DNA of 64,000 nucleotides, from NCBI RefSeq assembly GCF_963675165.1, contig NC_087391.1, positions 2,809,001 through 2,873,000 of the forward strand, written 5' to 3'. A program made the position numbers and the translations under genes. Below the pieces are notes generated by a model. It made no database searches and had not been told where the DNA came from. It saw only the letters and a list, made by a program, of their open reading frames with translations. Every line of letters starts with the position of its first letter. Positions within the stretch are counted from its first letter, which is position 1. Source of the DNA: Halichondria panicea. Taxonomy: Eukaryota; Porifera; Demospongiae; Suberitida; Halichondriidae. Shown in pieces: positions 4,146 to 62,249 of this stretch.

Positions 4146-4392
4146 AACCTCGAAAATTCAGAAAATGAACGTATCCCTTAAATGCGCATGTGCAGTGCAG
4201 CTGTTACTATGGAAACAGGCCTGCTTATCTTCTGCGCATGCGTGCAGACAACCATGTGGCACTGCTGTTTATCAATTAAGTGGGTGTATCAAGGCGTGGT
4301 TATCTATGCAGATTTCTAACCCCCGCCCTCTTCAATAATTCATAGTTGGGCATCATAAACTTAAAAGAAGTTACATCATCATTCTAATTATG

Positions 4393-4793
4393 TACAGTAG
4401 ACTCTCGCTATTCTGGCTCTCTGAAATATATACGACCACCTCGATATACCGGCCATTATTTTGGTTTGGCACGGATTGCTAGCTAGATGTGTACTGCACA
4501 AAACTCACCCTGAAATGTGGCCACTCGCTATTCCATATACTGGCCAGTACTGGCTGCTAGGTTTTCAATGTATGTTTATTACGGCCGAATACGATGTTTG
4601 GGTGTGGTTTGGCAGATAAAATTGTTAATAAGAGCAGAATGATTCATTATCCTTCATTATCCTCGAGACAGAACCGCATTAGATTCGAGGTAAGGTCGTT
4701 TTTTTAGCCACGGCTATTATTTTTCTGAAATACAGCCACCTCGCTATTCCAGACAAGCTGCACTGTCCCAGATTAACGAGTCTACGTACTGTA
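4393..4793. repeat. MITE-like element, pogo/Tigger-style ends
   Basis: It begins 'tacagtagactctcgctatt' and ends with the approximate reverse complement ('aacgagtctacgtactgta'). It is about 400 bp and flanked by TA. Ends of the CAGTAGACTC type are typical of non-autonomous pogo/Tigger elements. Family assignment is inference from the end sequence only. Confidence 0.6.
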
Positions 4794-6611
4794 ATACATC
4801 TCTCTAATTTACAGATCGATGTATTACTCATTTAACCTTACCGTACCGTACCATCATTTACTTATAATCATCATTTACTTATAAACCTGGAACTCACAAT
4901 AGTTACAGATCTCAGCACTATTTCCACAATTCCCTGCCAGAACTTGACTATAGCCAAACTGGGACTGGGAGACAACACATCTTTCATACGCTGCATGATG
5001 GAGTTGGCTTATAGTTAGTATAGTAGAACTATATCACTAGCTGGATCAACAGACAGCGCAGCAGATTAAATTATATGTTAAGTTGTAGCTAGCTGCTGAT
5101 TTTGCAATTTTGTCAAATCCCGCCCCAATTATAGGCATACATACGTGTAAAGTAAACCACAATACCACAAAACAAGGAACAAAGTTTAAATTCTGAAGAT
5201 TCTATAAACTTATCTTTATGTATATGTGGATATATAGATCTAGCTATACCTACAATATTCAGCATGAAGTACTATAGCTAGTTGGGTAACCAGGCTAATC
5301 CTTATCAAGTGGCGTATTATATGTACATGGCAGAGAATTGGAGACTGGTTCAGCATCAGGCGCAGGCTGTTTCTCAGTCAACAATTTTAAGATTGTTTTA
5401 AACGAACAGGCAGTGTATGTCGTAATCAAGCTACCCCTATAGCTAGAGCCCATACTTTCCACAAACATGACGAATATCTACTGGTCCATGCGATTACTTG
5501 CAGAAAATCCCGGTAGACTCTATGTACCTCAGTGAAATCAGAAAGATCGAAGCTCACTGGGGTAATTACTACAGAATATAGATTAAAGCTATACTCTGTA
5601 TGATCAAGACAGCTTGAATGGACTGAATATTGGGGCTTCAAAATTTGAACTTTTGTGCCTATAGATGGAGATCTTACCAAGTTGTTGGTTTAGCTGTAAA
5701 CTGTTAGATAAGTGGTTTTAAGTGGTTTTTTTTTTGCATTTTACAGTAATACTATTTGCCAAAACCTCACGTAAGCTACACCAAATAGCGTGAAAAACTG
5801 CAACAACAAAATCTGGTCTATAGAATCTTCTGTTCCAAAATTTAAACATTTCCTTGCTCTATAGTATTGTGGTTTACTTACGTAAACTGTCACACTTATT
5901 TCAAGTGGTTTTTTGCAATTTACTATATATTTGCCCCAAACATCCAAGTCAGCTGCAAAAGGCAATAGGTATATCACATAATTATTGCTCCGTAAAACTT
6001 AGATAACAAAAGAGAACAGCTGCAGCAAGATGGACCACAAAATACCTTTTTGCAAGGCATGCATGTTTAAAAATTATGCATGTGTGAAGATCGAGGCTAA
6101 AAGCAGAACTATACGAGAAGAAGTGAGTGGGAAGACCTGACAATTAAGCTCACATACAGCATTAATTAGCAGCAGTACTTTAGTTGCAAACTTGTTTCAG
6201 ACGAGAATACTAGCTACATGTATACTGTAATAAGGGAGGAGGCGTTCATTAATACTCTCGGTACATGTATACCATTATTTTGATATGTCATATCCTGTGA
6301 GAATGAACTCATTCTTGCAGTATCAGCAGTACGTACCGTATAGCAGGTTCGCACCAACGAAAAAATAAAAAAATAAAAAAATAAAAAATAAATTTCATAT
6401 TATTATAATTTTTGTACAGCTCAGGATAGTGACGTTGATTTCATTGCGGTAGAATAATTTTATTTTCGTATGATAATAATTATTATTATGCTCTTCAATA
6501 CGAAAGATACGCCTTACGAAAATAAAGTAGGGATAGAAAAATGGAGCAACCGTATAAGAGAGAGCAACCTCATCACTATATAGATTCTTGTTTTCTCCCC
6601 TTACGTTTTAT

Positions 6612-52899: not shown

Positions 52900-54205
52900 C
52901 GTTTACATAGTATCGCTGTGGTCTATCTCTGCTCTGCCCTTAGTCTCGCGAGCAGACTTGCCTAGAGGGAACTAAGACCTGGATCTCTGCTTCTGAGCAA
53001 AATGGGCAAAAATAAATGACCACTTCTGAAAAAGAGTGATAAGACTTCTTAGTTTTTGCTCGCTGGTCAGCAAAATTGATTTTAAGGGTGCATATACATT
53101 TTATGTTGTCATAATTTTGGAGACATTTCACCGTCATCTTTTGGTGTAGGCCTACTGTATTAAACATCAAATTACACTATATAGAAGTCCTCTAAAGATA
53201 ATAATTATGGTTTGATGTTTACGTACAATATCATGCAGATCTCAACCACGCAGAATGGAACCATAGATTGAGTACTCTATCTATGATGGAACTGTGCTAC
53301 TTGTATGTATGTTAGTATGTACATCTTTGGCAGTGTCGAACATGTGTGTGCGCATATACTCAAACTATGCCAGCATATATCAGTGGCGTGTACAATGGGG
53401 GGCTTTGGGGGCTTGAGCACCCCTCTGTCCTCCCAGACAACCATGCAACTAATCCTATCACAGTGGCGTAGGAAGCACGGGTGCTCAGGGTGCTGGAGCA
53501 CCCCCTTATCTCAAGCTGCCTTACCTATTTGCTCCATGAAGTTCAGAACAGCTAGCTAGAAGTCGAGCTAGTAGCTATTAGTTATACTAAGCTAGCTATA
53601 CTAGCATAGTTACGTACACAGAAGAAAGGTCAGCTAGATGAACCACATTGTAGATATCCTTAGGCCACTCCAAGTGACACTCTCTGAAGTTTTTCTAATT
53701 GCATGCGGGCGGGCGGCTTTTCTCATTATGTCATTATCAATTTCACCTTATGAATCTCATTATTTTGCAAATGAATATCATTATCACACTATTTTGTACC
53801 ACATGGACCATTATGCGCATGCGTAGTAGAAATAATGGGATAGAAATCCAATAATGAGATAGAAATCCAAGAATAAAATCTGATGCGGGCGGTGGACCAG
53901 AAACCAGAGTATCACTTGGAGTGGCCTTATAAAGAGCAAGCACATTGTCAATCTGCAACAAGCAAGTACGTAGTCTCCTCTCATTTTTGACATCAATGGT
54001 AGTAAGTTTCCATGAACAGCTACTAAAGAGGGTAGCTAGACTATAGATCAAGTGTAATTGGATCCTAAAATAGACATGCTGTAGTTAGAACGTTCGTTTT
54101 AATCACTGCAAAGATTGAAACATTCCTCCGAAGTACAATGACACAATGCAATCTTTTTTTATTGTATATTCATACCCACTTAACAGATTTTATAGATTTA
54201 AAGTA
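52900..54205. other. Intergenic between TPR gene and transposon; element ends only
   Basis: No gene is seen. Near 53381 and 53461 are two 'cagtggcgt' starts followed by 'ggtgctggagcaccc'-like sequence, which resembles hAT element termini. A MITE occupies 53660-53930. The 84-aa frame at 53305-53559 spans these ends and is not treated as a gene. Confidence 0.45.
53660..53930. repeat. MITE-like element, TTAGGCCACTCCAAGTGA ends
   Basis: The left end 'taggccactccaagtgacac' and the right end 'atcacttggagtggcctta' are inverted repeats. Both ends are followed inward by GCGGGCGG-type motifs. It is about 270 bp with no coding frame. Confidence 0.7.
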
Positions 54206-54769
54206 GAGTAATCAATCGAATATCGGGCGGCACCTATTTCCGGACACGGCCACGCCTAACTAGAGAACAGCTGTGATCATTTATTGCCAGCAGTACATAG
54301 CAGGGGCCCCTACTAACCTGGACACAAAATTTCGAGTCGTATCATTAGTCGTAGTAGAAGCAAGAGCTCTTGAAACGCAAAATACGGACATACACATGAT
54401 CATCCAATCTGTTGTATTCTCGTTTAGCCACTGCAGAGACCTCTTGTAAAGAGCAAACAGAACGATAAGTATACCTAAAGAAAGATAGACTACTGTGCTA
54501 TACAAACAGCATCTAAACAAAACTCTTGGTGCTATACAAATTACACAGTTCAAGTAATCGTTGTAGTGATGGTTAAAGTGCGGACATCTTCTCTTCCATT
54601 GCTGCCTCCCTGATCACACTACCTCAGCAGATCAATTTCAAACACATGGATGGATTAAAGTTAGCTGATGAACATGTGCATGTGAAGGGCTCTGTACTGG
54701 ACCTTTAGCTTGCTTTGAAATTTGTGAGTTACACTTACTTGGTTGTAATGTTTTTGTACACAGTGTGTA
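54206..54769 (+). repeat. Left terminal inverted repeat (564 bp)
   Basis: Complementary to 60175-60742 with only scattered substitutions and a small indel near 54700 ('gtgcatgtgaagg' versus 'gtgcatgtacgtgaagg'). Similarity stops at 'cagtgtgta' (54769). It contains the minus-strand 90-codon frame 54281-54553. Confidence 0.9.
54281..54553 (-). CDS. 90-aa hydrophobic frame in left TIR (uncertain)
   Basis: It starts MNCVICIAPRVLFRCC and contains a membrane-like segment (YSTVVYLSLGILIVLFALYK) and a second hydrophobic stretch (WMIMCMSVFCV). The translation is identical to that of 60395-60667 in the other TIR. That could reflect selection, or simply the near-identity of the two TIRs. No known domain. 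Each copy reads from the transposon end inward or outward symmetrically. I list it because it is exactly conserved, not because a function is known. Confidence 0.3.
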   Translation of the reverse strand: MNCVICIAPRVLFRCCLYSTVVYLSLGILIVLFALYKRSLQWLNENTTDWMIMCMSVFCVSRALASTTTNDTTRNFVSRLVGAPAMYCWQ

Positions 54770-54891
54770 GACTCTACCAATCATACCAAACATCACATGA
54801 CTAATGAAAAACACATGACTAATGAAAAATTATAAAACTAATGAACAGTTATATAACACAATACTGCAAAATGATTCACAAAAAAATAGAT

Positions 54892-57800
54892 CTAACAGCA
54901 TTCAAAACGGATTTCTTTGGCATTTTCTATAACAATTCCCACACATTCACAGTGATACCATTGCCCACAATTGTCACACTTCACCCAATCACCACTATCA
55001 GCATTAGTGCACCTACGGCTGATGCACAGACCTACACAAGAAACATTAACTTTAATGACAATGGGTGCATACAAGTGTGAAGGGAATACCTTGACTGCTC
55101 ACAACACCAGTTTTAGTAACCTTCTGCGAGACTGAAATATGGAGCAATATCAAGTTTCTAATATATACGTTACTTTCTCACAACTTACTAGTCTTCCTTG
55201 GACGCCCAACATTGTGCTTGTTGATAGCCACAGACTCTGAGAGAAAATGATTTGTATAACTGTAGAGCTCAATGTCATGAGTGTGTGTGTGTGTAATACC
55301 TCGAGTGTTCATAGGACAAAGTGGAGAAACCCTCCGCAGCACTAATTTTAAGAAAACAAATATAAAGGTGTATACATGTAAAACTTATAAGTAAGTGTGT
55401 ACTACTATTCTAAATTAACTGTAGCTTACCAGTTCTCGTTGCATTACCAGCAGTACTACAGTGTGTAACTGACACAGGCTCTGCAAAGATCATAAATTTA
55501 CATTATGTACAATAACCAGACAGTAAGCACATGACGTGAGGCTAGGTGCAGACAGTGTGGTGCATATTTACCTCCATTATTGAGACAAAAATGGAACAGT
55601 GTATACAACTTACTGGTTTACCTTCAACTTCCTGTGATCTTGACCCACTATTCTCAGCTCCTAAATAAATTAATTAGACGTTAATTTTCAAAGCCACAAT
55701 GTCTGCATGTATTTTTTAAACACCTTGACTATTCCCGGTTACTGTAACGGGTGGAGTAACCTTCCGGGAGACTAAAGAGAAGCAAAATGAAAAGTTATAA
55801 GTTTGTCCCCTCACAGCATATTTATACAACATACCCGTTTTCTTCGGGCGGCCAACAGGGCCTTTCTTGCTGTCTGGACCTTGACTGATGAGCCTGCCAT
55901 TTTTCTTCGCAGTAGCTGACACAGGCTCTGTGACAATTAACGCATTTATAATTAACTACTACATGTCTGTAGGTTGGATCATGCTACACCAAGTAGCGAT
56001 CATGAACCATTTAGTGCCTAATGATGGTATAATATACCTTCAACTTCCTGTGATCCAGTATTCTCAGCTCCTAAATAAATAAACGAGACACCTTAATAAT
56101 TATTTCCAAAGCCACAATGTCTGCATGTATTTTTAAACACCTTGACTGTTCACAGTTGCTGTAACAGGTAGAGTAACCTTCCGGGAGACTAAAAAGAAGC
56201 AAAATGAAAGTTTATAAGTTTGTCCCACAGGCTTACAGCATAATTATACAACATACCAGTTTTCCTTGGGCACCTAACAGGGCGTTTCTTGCTGTCTGGA
56301 CCTTGACTGATGAGACTGCCATTTTTCTTCGCAGCAGCTGACACAGGCTCTGTGACAATTATAAAACATGAAGGTCACCTACATGTATGCATTTAATTGG
56401 ATCGCACAGTGTAATAATAACGTTAACTATTGGATCGTAATAATAACGCAACCATTGGATCGTAATAATAACGCAACCATTGGATTGTAATAATAACGTA
56501 TAAACTATTGTATCATAATAAAGTTATTAATATGCAAATAGTTATTATTATGATCCAGTAAAGGTTACTATTATGATCCAATAGTTAACATTATTATTAC
56601 ACTGTACGATCCATATACACGTACATGTAGCTAGTACATGTGATCATGCTATACAAGTACATGTAGCGATTATGTACCATTAAATTTTAGTGCCTAATGG
56701 TTACATGTAAGTACAAATCAAATGTACATATACCCTCAACTCTTGACCCACTATTCTCAGCTCCTAAATAAATTAATTAGACGTTAATTTTCAAAGCCAC
56801 AACGTCTGCATGTATTTTTTAAACACCTTGACTATTTACAGTTATTTTAATGGGTGGAGTAACCTTCTGGGAGACTACGCAAAAATGAAATTTATAAGTT
56901 TGTCCCCTCACAGTAAAATTATACAAAACATACTGTACCAGTTTTCCGTGGGTGCCCAAGAGGGGGAAGCTTCTTGTTGGACACAGACTCTGTACTGTTC
57001 ACAGGACCAGGTGGTGAAACTTTCTGCGAGACTAAAATGGCGCAAAATGAACTTTCCAAAAACTACCCAATAATTTACCAGTTTTCCTTGAACTCCTAAG
57101 AGTATATTTACAGCTCTTTACTGATAACGGATCTGTGTGAATCATGTTGGCTTATCATGTATGCAACTGTACCTGTATATGGTACATGTATGCACACTCA
57201 TTCACATATTCATGTGTGAGATATACCTTGACTGTTCCCAGGAACAGGTGGAGTAACTTCCTGTGAGCCTGAAATAAAAAAGTTTCTAATAAACATACTG
57301 TATAAATTAATTATGTAACTTTGTACAATTATAGTACAGCAAACATTTACATTGTAGCTCACCAGCTCTCGGCAGACAACTGCCAGTAGTATCAGGCACA
57401 GACTCTGTTTCACGATCTGAACAAAGCAGCATGTTATTATAGGGTACACAACTGTATTACAGAGTGAAAATCAAACACGCTGTATCATGAGTACATATTA
57501 TATTCTTTACCTGGTCCAATAGATTCATCTCCTGAATAGCACCAACTATCAAAAAGGGCATCCACAATAGGATCACAATAATCATCTACAGTAATAAAAA
57601 AAACCAGTCATTATTGTGTTCGCAAATCCAATACAGCACATATAATATGTACATGTACCTGGTCCGAACGATCTTCTACCTTCTGAATCATCAGCATCTT
57701 CAAAAGCAGGAAACAAATATTACGTAAAGTGTATAATGAAGTGTATTGTACATGTAAGTACCTGGTTGAGGAGACACTTCTAAATCCGACTCACGCTCGT

Positions 57801-59775
57801 CAGTTTGTTTGTTACAGGTACCACCAGCTACATGTATGAAACAAAAATGTGTGTACAGTACGTGTACACTCTAGAGAACGAATGTAACGTTCCACATGTA
57901 ACACACAAAACCCACCTTGTGGATGATACATTTCAAGCCATAGTTTATACCTTCCCTTTGGTGCAAGATCATAGCCTTCAAGCAGCCTCGTTTCAAAACG
58001 GTCCCACTCGTTGTCGGTGAAGACAACATCACTCTCAGGAACAGCTGCATAAATAATTATAAGCTATAATTATACGACCAAACATAACAGTACTTTGACT
58101 CACAGTTAGTCGATTCTTTGGGCAACCTTGCGGGTGTGAGAGTTCGCTTCTGTTTCTGTTTCTTTGCTTCTTGCTTCTGAAGTCTCTTCTGCTGAGCTTG
58201 TTTCTTCTTAAGTTCCTTCTCAAGCTTCATTTGTTCCTTTTGGTTAATAATCTTCAGATTTTCAGAACTTGTTAGCACCCGTCCACTGCCAACTGGCTTA
58301 GCTTGTTGGGTGTGCAACTCAGGCACCGTCACTGCAGAAAGACATTTCGTAACAGCAGTCTGTCGTAGAACACAGCTGTTTTTAGCAGGACTCTTAGCAG
58401 GGGAGTCACCATCAGAAGAGTCTGTTTCTTCAACACTTGCATCATGTAGATGTATAGATCTTGATGGACTGCAGTTGTAGAGTGGTATGAAATTAAGGCC
58501 TGTTTCCTGTGCCAAGCTTGAAACCCGATCCTTAAAATCAGCAACAGGTAGCCTAATTGCCTCTCGATTAAAAGGGACTATGCCTGTGCATCGAAATCCA
58601 CTTATGGCATTAGCTGGGGTCATTGATGCAAACCATGCTTTGTTGAACAGCCGAGAAAACTCGTATCGGGTCACCATTTTTCCACCACTTTGTGCCATAT
58701 AACTATGACATTCCTTCCTCCAGGCACGCCCAAAACAGCCCTTATCAAGGGGTTGTGTTAAATGCGTTGTATTCGGCGGGAGACAGAAGAGTATTACCTG
58801 CTCCGAAGCTGCAAGTCTCACAGTACTCGGCTGGTAATGGGTAGAATGGCCATCCATTATTAACAACACAGGACGCACTGGAGATGCATTAGGCAAAAAT
58901 TGGCACTTAAACCAGTCTTCAAACAACACACTATCAATCCATCCATTTTTTGATGTTCCATACCTAGTTCCTGGTACTTCTCCATAAGTCCAAGCTGTTT
59001 TAATGTTCATTCTGTCAAATATAATCATAGGAGGAATGATTTGACCTGTTGCACTGACAGCTGAAACACATGTAAGCTGTGCTTTATTTCCGGTTGAGAT
59101 TTTTATTGGGTGTTTTACACCTCTGACAGTGATGATTTTTGGAGGTGCAGGGTCGAGGGGCATGCCTGTTTCGTCCATGTTGTAGATTTGGGATGGGCAA
59201 TCGAGTAAATCATTCTCTGTCAGCGTCTGCTCCAACAAGTCATAATAGCAAGAAATTACTTGGGGAGAACTTGCTACAGCCCTTGAGTATGATAATGGCT
59301 CTGCAGCACGTACAGCTAGTTCACCATGCCTCTTCTTAAACGAGGTCCACCACCCATCAGTGACTACGGCAGTTCGAAGTCCTTTTGTTTGAACAATGTT
59401 ACGAACCAGTGCCAAAACTTCCTGTTTGGATTTTGCATAGCCCATTGATGCACAACCACAGAGAAAACTAACAAGTTCATTCTCTTCCTCATCAGTGAGG
59501 AGCTTTGGTGGGCCACTTCTCGCCCCAAACTTAACTCGTCCACTGACGCGATCCTGAAGAGTTGACTTAGGTACTCCATATGCCTCGGCAGCATCTCGTA
59601 CTGAGAGCCCATCTTCAATATGTGCTAAGTATGCTTTATAGAGGGTACTTTCAGTCCATGACTTGTAAGAGGTTGGTCGTTTCGCAACTGTGGGTATATA
59701 AGACGATCGCGGTGGCGAGAGAGTAAAAGTTCTTCGTGCGACAAACACACGGTCATTCAAGCTGAGCTGAGCCAT
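54892..59775 (-). CDS. Pogo-like DDD transposase with AT-hook exon array and PHD finger, 22 exons
   Basis: It should bind the TIRs and cut and paste the element. The main exon 59775-58104 (557 codons) has a psq/CENP-B-like helix-turn-helix (residues about 57-80, LSVRDAAEAYGVPKSTLQDR) and a DDE_1 domain with D201 (YNMDETG), D308 (LLIMDGHSTH) and D344 (QPLDKGCFG). A Lys/Gln-rich helix follows (near the exon end). Further exons: 58044-57916, 57827-57762, 57697-57659, 57585-57511, 57416-57363, 57268-57227, 57132-57079, 57031-56939, 56874-56827, 56763-56734, 56349-56257, 56188-56141, 56070-56038, 55927-55835, 55771-55724, 55660-55622, 55480-55430, 55341-55300, 55236-55189, 55131-55090, 55031-54892. 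All 21 introns are phase 1; total 2,979 nt, 992 aa. The last exon encodes a C4HC3 PHD-type finger (GDWVKCDNCGQWYHCECVG, ending ECC). An AG just upstream of the start suggests a 5' UTR intron. Confidence 0.88.
55090..57268 (-). other. Repeated mini-exon array of the transposase (AT-hook modules)
   Basis: Fifteen exons of 30-93 nt fall into three recurring types. Type A (42-48 nt) reads V-S-[QR]-K-V-T-P-P-...-S-Q-G, at 57268, 56874, 56188, 55771, 55341 and 55131. Type B (30-39 nt) reads A-E-N-[ST]-G-S-..-E-V-E-G, at 56763, 56070 and 55660. Type C (48-93 nt) starts E-[PS]-V-[SA] and ends GRP[KR]KT or a variant, at 56349 (VRCPRKT), 55927 (VGRPKKT), 55480 (degenerate), 55236 (VGRPRKT) and, fused with A, 57031 (LGHPRKT). 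The order A-B-C is repeated about three times. GRP flanked by basic residues is the AT-hook signature that grips the minor groove of AT-rich DNA. Uniform phase-1 borders allow exon gain or loss without frameshift. Confidence 0.85.
56401..56610. repeat. Nested foldback element with internal tandem repeats in a transposase intron
   Basis: The arms 56401-56437 ('cacagtgtaataataacgtt', then 'aactattggatc') and 56574-56610 are inverted copies. Between them 'taataataacg.aaccattg' is repeated about three times and then appears in inverted form ('atgatccagtaaagg'). It lies in the intron between transposase exons 56763 and 56349 and does not disturb splicing. Confidence 0.7.
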
Positions 59776-60100
59776 CAAACAACTGCAAACAACAAAAATA
59801 TGCATATTAAAAACCAAAGGAATACTTTGTATCCTGTGCCTTATACCCACAACAGCAGGTTCTTGCAATTAGCCTACCACAGGTAAAGTGGCTGGGCATG
59901 AGACTATGTACGTTTAAATGTATGTGCAGAATAGCTAGCACTATATTTCTATTCAAGGGGCATACTTTTACACACGTGCCTGGCCTTAGGTGTGCTGGCA
60001 TGCCAATCACATGCCCCTTTACAGGCTAAACTACACATATGGCCTATTACAAAGCTCTAGGCTTGAATTTGAAATTATATTCTCCGTTCCAATGCCTAAG

Positions 60101-60163
60101 AGCTCTGGTAGCTCAGTAGTAAGAGCATCTGACTATTATTCAGAAAGTCTCAGGTTCATGTAA
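60101..60163 (+). pseudogene. tRNA-like fragment (possible SINE head), degraded
   Basis: The sequence 'ggtagctcagtagtaagagc' matches a tRNA D-arm/A-box, and 'tctgactattattcaga' can form an anticodon arm. The B-box region reads 'aggttcatg' in place of GGTTCGANTCC, so it is damaged. No acceptor stem closes. It lies inside the transposon, just inside the right TIR. Confidence 0.4.
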
Positions 60164-60174
60164 CAGTTTAATCA

Positions 60175-60742
60175 TACACACTGTGTACAAAAACATTACA
60201 ACCAAGTAAGTGTAACTCACAAATTTCAAAGCAAGCTAAAGGTCCAGTACAGAGCCCTTCACGTACATGCACACGTTCATCAGCTAACTTTAATCCATCC
60301 ACGTGTTTGAAATTGATCTGCTGAGGTAGTGTGATCAGGGAGGCAGCAATGGAAGAGAAGATGTCCGCACTTTAACCTTCACTACAACGATTACTTGAAC
60401 TGTGTAATTTGTATAGCACCAAGAGTTTTGTTTAGATGCTGTTTGTATAGCACAGTAGTCTATCTTTCTTTAGGTATACTTATCGTTCTGTTTGCTCTTT
60501 ACAAGAGGTCTCTGCAGTGGCTAAACGAGAATACAACAGATTGGATGATCATGTGTATGTCCGTATTTTGCGTTTCAAGAGCTCTTGCTTCTACTACGAC
60601 TAATGATACGACTCGAAATTTTGTGTCCAGGTTAGTAGGGGCCCCTGCTATGTACTGCTGGCAATAAATGATCACAGCTGTTCTCTAGTTAGGCGTGGCC
60701 GTGTCCGGAAATAGGTGCCGCCCGATATTCGATTGATTACTC
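60175..60742 (-). repeat. Right terminal inverted repeat (568 bp)
   Basis: It mirrors 54206-54769 and ends '..cgattgattactc' before the TA duplication. It contains the plus-strand 90-codon frame 60395-60667. Confidence 0.9.
60395..60667 (+). CDS. 90-aa hydrophobic frame in right TIR (uncertain)
   Basis: Its translation is identical to the frame in the left TIR (54281-54553). It has two hydrophobic stretches and no known domain. Both frames begin with the same ATG context after 'cgattacttga'. Whether it is expressed is unknown. Confidence 0.3.
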   Translation: MNCVICIAPRVLFRCCLYSTVVYLSLGILIVLFALYKRSLQWLNENTTDWMIMCMSVFCVSRALASTTTNDTTRNFVSRLVGAPAMYCWQ

Positions 60743-62249
60743 TATATAGCAGAACAATTAATCCAGGTAAACTCATGCATGTAGATCTAGAATTAATTAT
60801 TTAAATTTTGATACTGATAATTTTATACCAAATTTGCTCAGAATTAATCTCCGGGAATATAGAGTGCCAAAATTTTCCTGGGACTAGCCCCCGGACCCCC
60901 AGATTTGTAAAGCACCCCCTTACAAAAACATCTTCCTACTCCTCTGTATCACTCAGTAGCTAGCTAGCTAACTGTGCAGCTCCAGAGATACATGCAGCTC
61001 TATCTCACGGTTACAAGTAATGACCACGCCTAATTGAGCATGCGCAATCAGCATTGCCATTGCCATTCCAATGTTGTTATGTAATGCATAATAGCTGATC
61101 AAGATCCTCTGCACTCTCCCAGTCACCTCTTGCTCCACTGAGAGATACTGCGAAGCAATGACTAACACTAGAATGACTGGACATCCCCATTGCAGTGATT
61201 GACCAGTTTGCTAGGATGTACCCCAGGAGAATAGTGCATGGAGATCCTACAAGATAACTGACTCATAATTATGTCTTATTATCACACTATGCATGTATTA
61301 GATCCCATTTGAATGTATTTAGCAGGGAACTATGAGCTATAGTACCGGTACTATAGATTCTGGGCTACAAACCACAACATTATACATTTTGATACACATA
61401 AAATTATTGTAGCTAGATGCTTTGTGTAGTAACATAGTAACAGAACTAGAATGGAAGAGAGAAGCTCTAGAGTATTTTTGGCTTTGTTCGAGAGTAGTAG
61501 GAGCCGCTCGTTTCTTGGGCAGTGTGCTGTACTTTTTTGCTGCAAGGCTGCATGGGGGAGGAGCTGAATGTATGAAAGACGCGCTGCAATAAATGCGGGG
61601 GCATAAAATCGCGCGTGCTATGCACGCAGCCCCATTTTTTTCTGTGCTCTTGAGCACCCTCCTGCTTCAATCTCTAGAAACGCCCCTGTATATTATTATA
61701 ACTTCCACTGTCACTATTATTTCATAATGGTTGGGTCATAATGTACCCAGACTACCCAAATGCACTATAGGGGTTGGTAGATTATCAGAGGAGGTTGGAA
61801 GGAAGTTGAGATCACGTGCAATTAAAGCTATATAATTATGTGCTGAGTCGGCGCTATTTTTGTGTCTAGTCAGCAGTTTCACAGTAGCTACTGGTCATCA
61901 AGGACATGGGCAGTCAGACTTCTTCCTCACTCTAAGCTGTACAACATTGATCACTGCACCTGCTTCTGATTTAAAATCTCTACTAAGATTTCTCCTAGCC
62001 AAAGTACTAGATCTAAGGAGATAAAGATTCTCTTCCTGGATTGAACAGGAGTCTGGCATGTAGGTGATCCTCTGGATCTTTTACTGCTCATCTCTAGCTC
62101 TTGATATCTTATGTATAACTAAACTGCTGACTAGACTCAAAAATAGCGCCGACTCAGCACATTTCTAGTTAGATTTCCAGTATAATCATCAGTAACGCAC
62201 GCTCACCCTACAATGTGTTGAATTATATCACAACGACGTGATTATTAAG
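60743..62249. other. Intergenic between transposon and TSNAX; element remnants
   Basis: No gene is recognised. Near 61660-61690 'ttgagcaccctcctgcttca' followed by 'tctctagaaacgcccctg' reads, on the minus strand, as a hAT-type terminus (CAGGGGCGTTTCTAGAGA). A second fragment with 'tagcccccggacccc' lies near 60890. The 61,839-62,161 inverted-repeat element is listed separately. Confidence 0.45.
61839..62161. repeat. Foldback element, 41-bp arms
   Basis: The arms 61839-61879 ('tgtgctgagtcggcgctatt', 'gtctagtcagcagttt') and 62121-62161 are inverted copies with one mismatch. The 240-bp interior has no coding frame. It ends about 90 bp from the TSNAX stop codon. Confidence 0.75.

Follow-up and report, generated by a model that had tools for sequence, protein, structure and literature searches.

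How a DNA transposase might come to carry a long tail split over many small exons, and what such a tail could do, is the question raised by a locus in the sponge Halichondria panicea (NCBI RefSeq assembly GCF_963675165.1, contig NC_087391.1). The window analysed here comprised 64,000 nucleotides (positions 2,809,001 to 2,873,000 of the forward strand), and the element in question, 6537 bp long, occupied positions 54206-60742 of it, with its gene on the minus strand. A first-pass annotation, made from the letters alone, had described it as an intact pogo-like transposon whose transposase fuses a DDD core, an AT-hook array, and a PHD finger. Sequence comparison lends good support to an architecture in which the transposase gene continues across a series of small exons, joined in phase 1, and closes with a PHD-type finger. 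It also supports the recurrence of such a tail in diverged relatives, some of which appear to carry an Ulp1-like protease and a PHD finger in its place. We regard it as moderately probable that these elements form a pogo lineage in which a variable linker, together with a PHD finger contacting the histone H3 tail, tethers the transposase to chromatin.

The 22-exon model on the minus strand was reproduced, with 2979 nt encoding 992 amino acids (aa) and one stop codon, and all 21 introns (47–384 nt) had GT-AG borders and lay in phase 1. Among proteins, exon 1 was matched best by isoform X2 of the uncharacterized LOC135348769 from H. panicea (969 aa; hereafter P0001), a predicted NCBI model. P0001 fitted a sister copy of the element (C15b) with zero mismatches in 20 exons and 19 phase-1 GT-AG introns. 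Exons 10 and 11 were left out of P0001, and C15b with both added encodes 995 aa.

Exon 1 (58104..59775, minus strand) was assigned by Pfam and by mapping of P0001 to an HTH_psq plus DDE_1 core with a basic coiled tail, and the catalytic residues D201, D308, and D344 named in the annotation were borne out. In the window copy, exon 1 scored 73.9 bits for DDE_1 (PF03184, cut-off 22) and 28.6 for HTH_psq (PF05225, cut-off 20.4), while PF03221 was below its cut-off (13.8 vs 22.2); P0001 scored 84.5 bits for PF03184. The catalytic cores listed for exon 1 and P0001 were DDE_1 and a weak DDE_3, with no Gypsy-type integrase core. A motif survey covered 120 proteins, P0001 among them, and the spacing from the second to the third Asp (D308 to D344) was 35 residues in all 116 proteins that matched both motifs. 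Judged by these features, the core is a psq plus DDE_1 (DD35D) transposase of the pogo type.

The ends and copies of the element were consistent with mobility. The left and right terminal inverted repeats (TIRs) were 564 bp (54206..54769, starting with GAGTAATCAATCG) and 568 bp (60175..60742, defined by TIR match and copy comparison), and each was bordered by a TA dinucleotide (54204..54205 and 60743..60744) as expected of a target-site duplication. Including the TA, the arms (54204-54769 and 60175-60744) matched in two blocks that were 98–99% complementary, which agrees with the TIRs as first annotated. The left TIR had 14 matches in the 131-Mb H. panicea genome, corresponding to six two-ended copies, including that of the window, and one one-ended copy (C12b). 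The five further two-ended copies were located on C15 (C15b), C12 (C12a), C1 (C1a and C1b), and C3. Along the longest aligned stretch, identity to the window copy was 99.6% for C15b, 99.5% for C1a, 99.6% for C12a, and 99.4% for C1b, of which a second piece was 96.9% identical, and the C3 copy aligned piecewise at 98.3–99.2%. C12a had a 399-bp insert in one TIR, the last exon of C1b contained 94 bp of inserted sequence, and the C3 copy was broken by a premature stop and several frame-changing gaps. Flanking sequences differed among the six two-ended copies, each of which had TA on both sides. Because near-identical copies sit at unrelated TA sites, the element is, on this comparison of copies, a pogo-superfamily DNA transposon of the cut-and-paste kind that was recently mobile in H. 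panicea, in keeping with the pogo-like transposon of the annotation. When copies with empty sites were sought, no empty site was present among the genome matches listed for the 600-bp left flank, the one flank tried. Among those matches the flank was unique except for a miniature inverted-repeat transposable element (MITE) at query positions 54–325. This MITE (window 53660-53930, ~280 bp, with inverted ends) lay ~280 bp left of the element and had at least ~40 genome copies at 92–96% identity. Among the copies of the transposon, the TIRs had 12–14 variant sites per kb, about twice as many as exons and introns (6–7 per kb).

The description of the window copy as intact is doubtful. Its exon 1 has a 9-bp in-frame gap after D344, which is absent from C15b, C1a, C12a, and C1b, so that three residues following the "DKGCFG" at D344 are missing. 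These positions were filled in all 119 motif-matched proteins (PLK in 107 and variants such as ALK and SLK in 12), and the activity of this copy is therefore questionable.

Downstream of the core, on the same strand, the tail begins with exon 2 (57916..58044), which encodes an FxxRxxEGYDLxxxxRYxxWL module; such a motif occurred in 47 of the 120 proteins. It continues through exons 3–9 (56939..57827; phase 1, 39–93 nt), the last of which encodes GHPRK (GRPRK in C15b), and through exons 10 and 11 (56734..56874; 48 and 30 nt), which are absent from isoform X2. Direct repeats and module comparison showed exons 12–17 (55622..56349) to be a three-exon module present twice (93, 48, and 33–39 nt), with RCPRK and GRPKK cores. 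The introns were duplicated with the module; between the two copies, 17 of the 174 aligned exonic positions differed, as did 27 of the 160 aligned intronic ones. Exons 18–21 (55090..55480; phase 1, 42–51 nt), with GRPRK in exon 20, lead to exon 22 (54892..55031), which encodes the PHD-type finger and the stop codon. Intron 11 contained a foldback (56398-56613) with 50-nt arms at 92% identity, probably an older nested insertion; the indels listed between copies included none at this site.

The AT-hook array of the annotation held in part. Four AT-hook-like cores occur in P0001 (GRPRK, RCPRK, GRPKK, GRPRK), the first of which has an H in the window copy; these cores are weak, GRPRK or GRPKK being kept in two of the four in the window copy, and Pfam AT_hook scored 16.2 in P0001, below its cut-off of 17.4. 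Residues 721–922 of P0001 form a basic linker with an isoelectric point of 11.1. The PHD finger passed Pfam for exon 22 alone (27.1 bits, cut-off 24) and fell below the cut-off in the whole of P0001 (20.6). Its last Cys pair is compressed. PHD-type zinc fingers often read histone marks. The solved PHD fingers nearest to that of the window element were those of KDM5B, TAF3, CXXC1, EBS, and JARID1A, several of which are H3K4me3 readers, so that the chromatin-reading extension proposed in the annotation is plausible.

The account of a single unusual element, accurate in what it observed and of the right kind in its interpretation, proved too narrow. P0001 had 56 matches in the genome, ten of which were long DDE_1 frames at 43–50% identity, and downstream DNA was read for nine elements (the window element, C14, C1c, C9, C6 [L046], C1d [L047], C17, C9b, and C6b). 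PHD-like coding DNA followed the transposase in eight of the nine, and in five of these it scored above the Pfam cut-off of 24 (window 27.1, C14 29.7, C1c 30.7, C9 34.8, C6 26.7). Besides these nine, a decayed locus (L036), of which 1.5 kb of downstream DNA was covered, had a PHD-like stretch with an internal stop codon at the Trp position. The fingers of C14, C1c, C9, C6, C1d, and the sponge Dysidea end in C-x2-C. A Trp before [YF]H matched by pattern in 10 of 11 tabulated fingers and could be recognised by eye in the remaining one; the finger of L036, a twelfth, has its stop codon there and was left out of the table. Such a Trp is typical of K4me3 readers. In the protein survey, a PHD was recognised by pattern in four of the 120 proteins; many of the others were metagenome open reading frames (ORFs), from which it may be missing because introns are missing there.

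Arrays of small exons were present in five elements: the window element, C14 (7 exons of 48–57 nt), C1c (three two-exon modules and one leading exon), C17 (9 exons of exactly 90 nt), and C9b (5 clean exons of 90–132 nt and one more interrupted by a nested insert). The interruption in C9b (L065+L024, gene-sense ~4240-5030) is a ~800-bp insertion that splits one 90-nt mini-exon. The array repeats differed by member (GRPRK-type, RATKSTRANPS, GGRGR, TTRSKGAR, and TTRAKRQ) and by eye seemed unrelated, and GRPRK-type cores were found in the window member only, among the members read. Module copies within elements differed in length by multiples of three. All 48 internal exons counted (20 in the window element, 9 in C17, 5 in C9b, 7 in C14, and 7 in C1c) were multiples of three, where the count omits the interrupted C9b copy, the relatives' exons are partly modelled with borders placed according to the pattern of GT and AG signals, and exons duplicated in tandem do not count as independent cases. 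An apparent 2255-aa open frame at G000:C17:5545827-5547200 (L029, L067) was rejected as a giant gene, since a stretch of N upstream produces it.

These data also bear on whether the later exons are used at all. Beyond exon 1 the reading frame stays open within intron 1 as far as a stop at 58059, giving 572 aa in the window copy; the functional product could be a transposase of this length, with the later exons rarely or never joined or else making a repressor isoform. Many relatives are indeed shorter metagenome ORFs, which may only reflect intron-less gene calling. The 20-exon NCBI model, the length of the 48 internal exons, and the retention of the PHD-like exon in relatives only 43–48% identical all argue the other way, and we judge a short product to be quite unlikely.

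Three diverged members, C9 (L049+L023), C6 (L046), and C1d (L047), had an Ulp1-like domain in the open frame, followed by the PHD, instead of an array. Residues His94, Asp113, Gln148, and Cys154 of this domain were invariant in all three. A fold search was headed by XopD and Ulp1 structures at weak E-values (0.02–0.05) with a low-confidence model (pLDDT, predicted local distance difference test, of 42), and the sequence compared with solved structures gave one unrelated match at E 1.5. In a profile search on the same structural question, PHD fingers were seen in the best 60 of 87 rows. The pairing would suit an anti-silencing role, in which the PHD and, in some members, an Ulp1-like deSUMOylase would work against the host's silencing of transposons and not in target choice, and the Ginger paper, in its accessible text, raises the possibility that proteases of this kind take part in transposition (PMC2836005). 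No Ulp1-like domain is present in the model of the window element, Pfam Peptidase_C48 reached 19.5 against a cut-off of 20.7 in one member and was not listed in the other two, and the fold model is poor even though XopD and Ulp1 head the list. We consider an anti-silencing role unlikely.

Similar proteins were found in two other sponges. P0062 of Dysidea avara combines psq and DDE_1 with a C-terminal PHD-like finger of ING type (ING1-like, E 3.8e-17), and P0109 of Amphimedon queenslandica has psq and DDE_1, a basic repeat stretch, and then a C-terminal PHD-like finger, which alone scored 25.4 for Pfam PHD (cut-off 24). The fingers of both proteins have C-x-C and C-x4-C spacing. Both resemble the window element in their order of domains and differ from it as uncharacterised predicted proteins without GRPRK-type cores. 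A protein search with the Dysidea PHD region returned the query alone. The occurrence of PHD-like sequence after the transposase in diverged members and in these two sponges speaks against the tail being a captured host gene carried by one transposon family. A search with residues 555–969 of P0001, whose reach is restricted to close relatives of similar length, also retrieved only P0001 among 5607 candidates. Host chromatin proteins often contain PHD and AT-hook motifs, so capture could be imagined, and we think it very improbable.

In the tethering mechanism that we favour, the psq domain would bind CG boxes near the termini and DDE_1 would cut at TA. The variable linker, which is basic in the window member, would give weak affinity for DNA or nucleosomes, and the PHD would contact the histone H3 tail, probably H3K4me3. 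The transposase would thereby be held at open chromatin, where donor and targets are found. Histone reading and targeting by the PHD tail are thus what we infer from the architecture. Because the internal exons are in phase 1 and multiples of three, linker exons can be duplicated, lost, or skipped in frame, and the frame-neutral exons would allow tail length and charge to change quickly. The two-exon difference between the 22-exon model and isoform X2 illustrates such a change by duplication or skipping. A more elaborate version, which we put forward tentatively as a possibility, is a modular chromatin-tethering tail shared by an entire sponge pogo lineage, in which a histone-reading PHD sits on a hypervariable, fast-evolving linker, encoded by phase-1 mini-exons multiplied in tandem, that binds nucleosomes or mimics histones and is tunable by in-frame exon skipping; to the eye, some array repeats look like histone tails.

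Several observations weigh against tethering by a conserved tail. Variants among copies did not indicate purifying selection on the exons (14 nonsynonymous, 5 synonymous, and 1 stop), and 20 exonic vs 12 intronic variant sites correspond to 6.7 vs 6.3 per kb; this pattern is compatible with young copies and gives the exons no support. PHD scores were below the cut-off of 24 in three of the eight elements with PHD-like DNA (22.5 in C1d, 21.3 in C17, and 18.1 in C9b, which is decayed), and in C6b neither PHD nor array was found in the 8.8 kb read, ~5.6 kb of which lay downstream of the frame. Among the proteins, the whole of P0109 (17.9), P0039 (17.3), and P0062 (22.0) also scored below the cut-off, P0062 passing with an NSD-type PHD model. 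The PHD of the window element ends in FECC-stop with the last two Cys adjacent at the C-terminus, so that its last zinc-ligand pair is not C-x2-C and departs from the C4-H-C3 set. Its AlphaFold model was poor (pLDDT 62), and a structure search with that model gave no match. On a tree built without the reference elements of Gao et al., the array carriers did not cluster, and three changes were needed with C17 and C9b labelled as carriers; a single origin of the arrays may still be compatible with this tree. The AT content at the six insertion sites was 0.61, compared with a background of 0.60 (P = 0.38; few sites and low power), so the targeting of AT-rich DNA suggested by the annotation found no support.

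The termini provided candidate binding sites. Of 23 related loci, 15 had TAGAGTAA upstream in sense orientation and one had it upstream on the opposite strand, with 18 occurrences in 93,759 bases; among these loci L041 and L044 represent a single locus in two overlapping halves, and some are near-identical at their termini. The terminal GAGTAA of the left TIR is common to diverged relatives. Twelve distinct termini, including those of the window element and L047, were compared without gaps, all sharing GAGTAA, by which the other ten were picked; CG was found at offset 18 in nine and at offset 35 in 11, whereas in 2000 shuffles every column stayed below 8. Common descent can explain this conservation. 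The two CG boxes, separated by 17 bp, are kept amid divergence, which suggests putative binding sites. CGGACA, first spotted by eye, was the top 6-mer common to the TIRs of the window element and L047, which do not align. It occurred three times in the left window TIR, on the plus strand (54241..54246, at zero-based TIR offset 35; 54385..54390; and 54581..54586), and in L047 five times in the part tested and six and five times in the two whole arms.

Such repeated boxes fit a tail that serves DNA binding or assembly, the basic linker holding the long TIRs and the PHD being structural or DNA-binding, as in piggyBac, whose cysteine-rich domain (CRD) binds DNA (PMC8086355, in its accessible text). 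The basic linker of P0001 and the absence of a canonical last Cys pair from the window PHD point the same way. Full ligand sets are however present in the PHD fingers of several relatives, the nearest solved structures are chromatin proteins (ING1 for Dysidea), and the Trp associated with K4me3 readers is kept. We therefore hold a purely DNA-binding tail to be rather unlikely and retain tethering through histone H3 as the preferred reading.

Comparison with known systems places the element within the pogo superfamily, with which it shares HTH_psq and DDE_1, the DD35D spacing of several pogo families, and the TA target site (Gao et al. 2020, PMC7386202; here and below, the published sources are cited for their accessible text). 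Pogo elements are given there as 1.2–5.2 kb with transposases of 300–977 aa, and the window element, at 6537 bp and 992 aa, lies outside this range, which is a description rather than a definition. The words "intron", "sponge", and "PHD finger" do not occur in that text. No pogo element with a PHD was found in the literature searched, which consisted of titles and the starts of abstracts, with subscription journals and Repbase Reports mostly outside. POGZ, POGK, and CENPB likewise combine pogo cores with extra domains (Gao et al. 2020); they are domesticated host genes rather than mobile elements, and what they add is ZNF or KRAB towards the N-terminus or a dimerisation domain at the C-terminus. 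Ginger1 of Hydra has a C-terminal Ulp1, and Ulp1 together with PHD is found on the Ginger1-9_HM transposase (Bao et al. 2010, PMC2836005), but its core is Gypsy-integrase-like, unlike the psq and DDE_1 of the window element, and no mini-exon array is noted, the values of 0–4 in a column there being taken as introns. The transposases piggyBac, PiggyMac, and Tpb2 have a C-terminal zinc-binding CRD that touches DNA or the histone H3 tail, with histone H3 being contacted in PiggyMac and Tpb2 (PMC8086355). They belong to another transposase family, the CRD of PiggyMac does not have a PHD fold, and no exon array is noted.

One 131-Mb genome thus contains elements with similar catalytic cores and different tails (array and PHD, Ulp1-like and PHD, or none found), some of them recently mobile. 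The landing preference of cut-and-paste elements, which is open for most families, becomes testable here, as insertion landscapes can be compared between tail types. The tandem duplication of tiny symmetric exons is also an unusual way for a protein encoded by a transposon to evolve.

The TIRs of the window element fall within pogo type 4 (392–856 bp), which had been reported from insects only (PMC7386202), and they extend long-TIR pogo elements to sponges. Long TIRs were absent from the DNA read for L046, C1c, C17, and C6b. Other relatives had them: the C14 TIRs were ~390 bp at 99% identity, those of C9b 398 bp at 93%, and those of the 5.1-kb C9 398 bp at 99.5%. L047 was 7368 bp long, with TIR arms of ~430 bp at 97%. 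Inside this Ulp1-PHD relative lay a nested element of 1245 bp (C1:14032075-14033319) with arms of ~524 bp.

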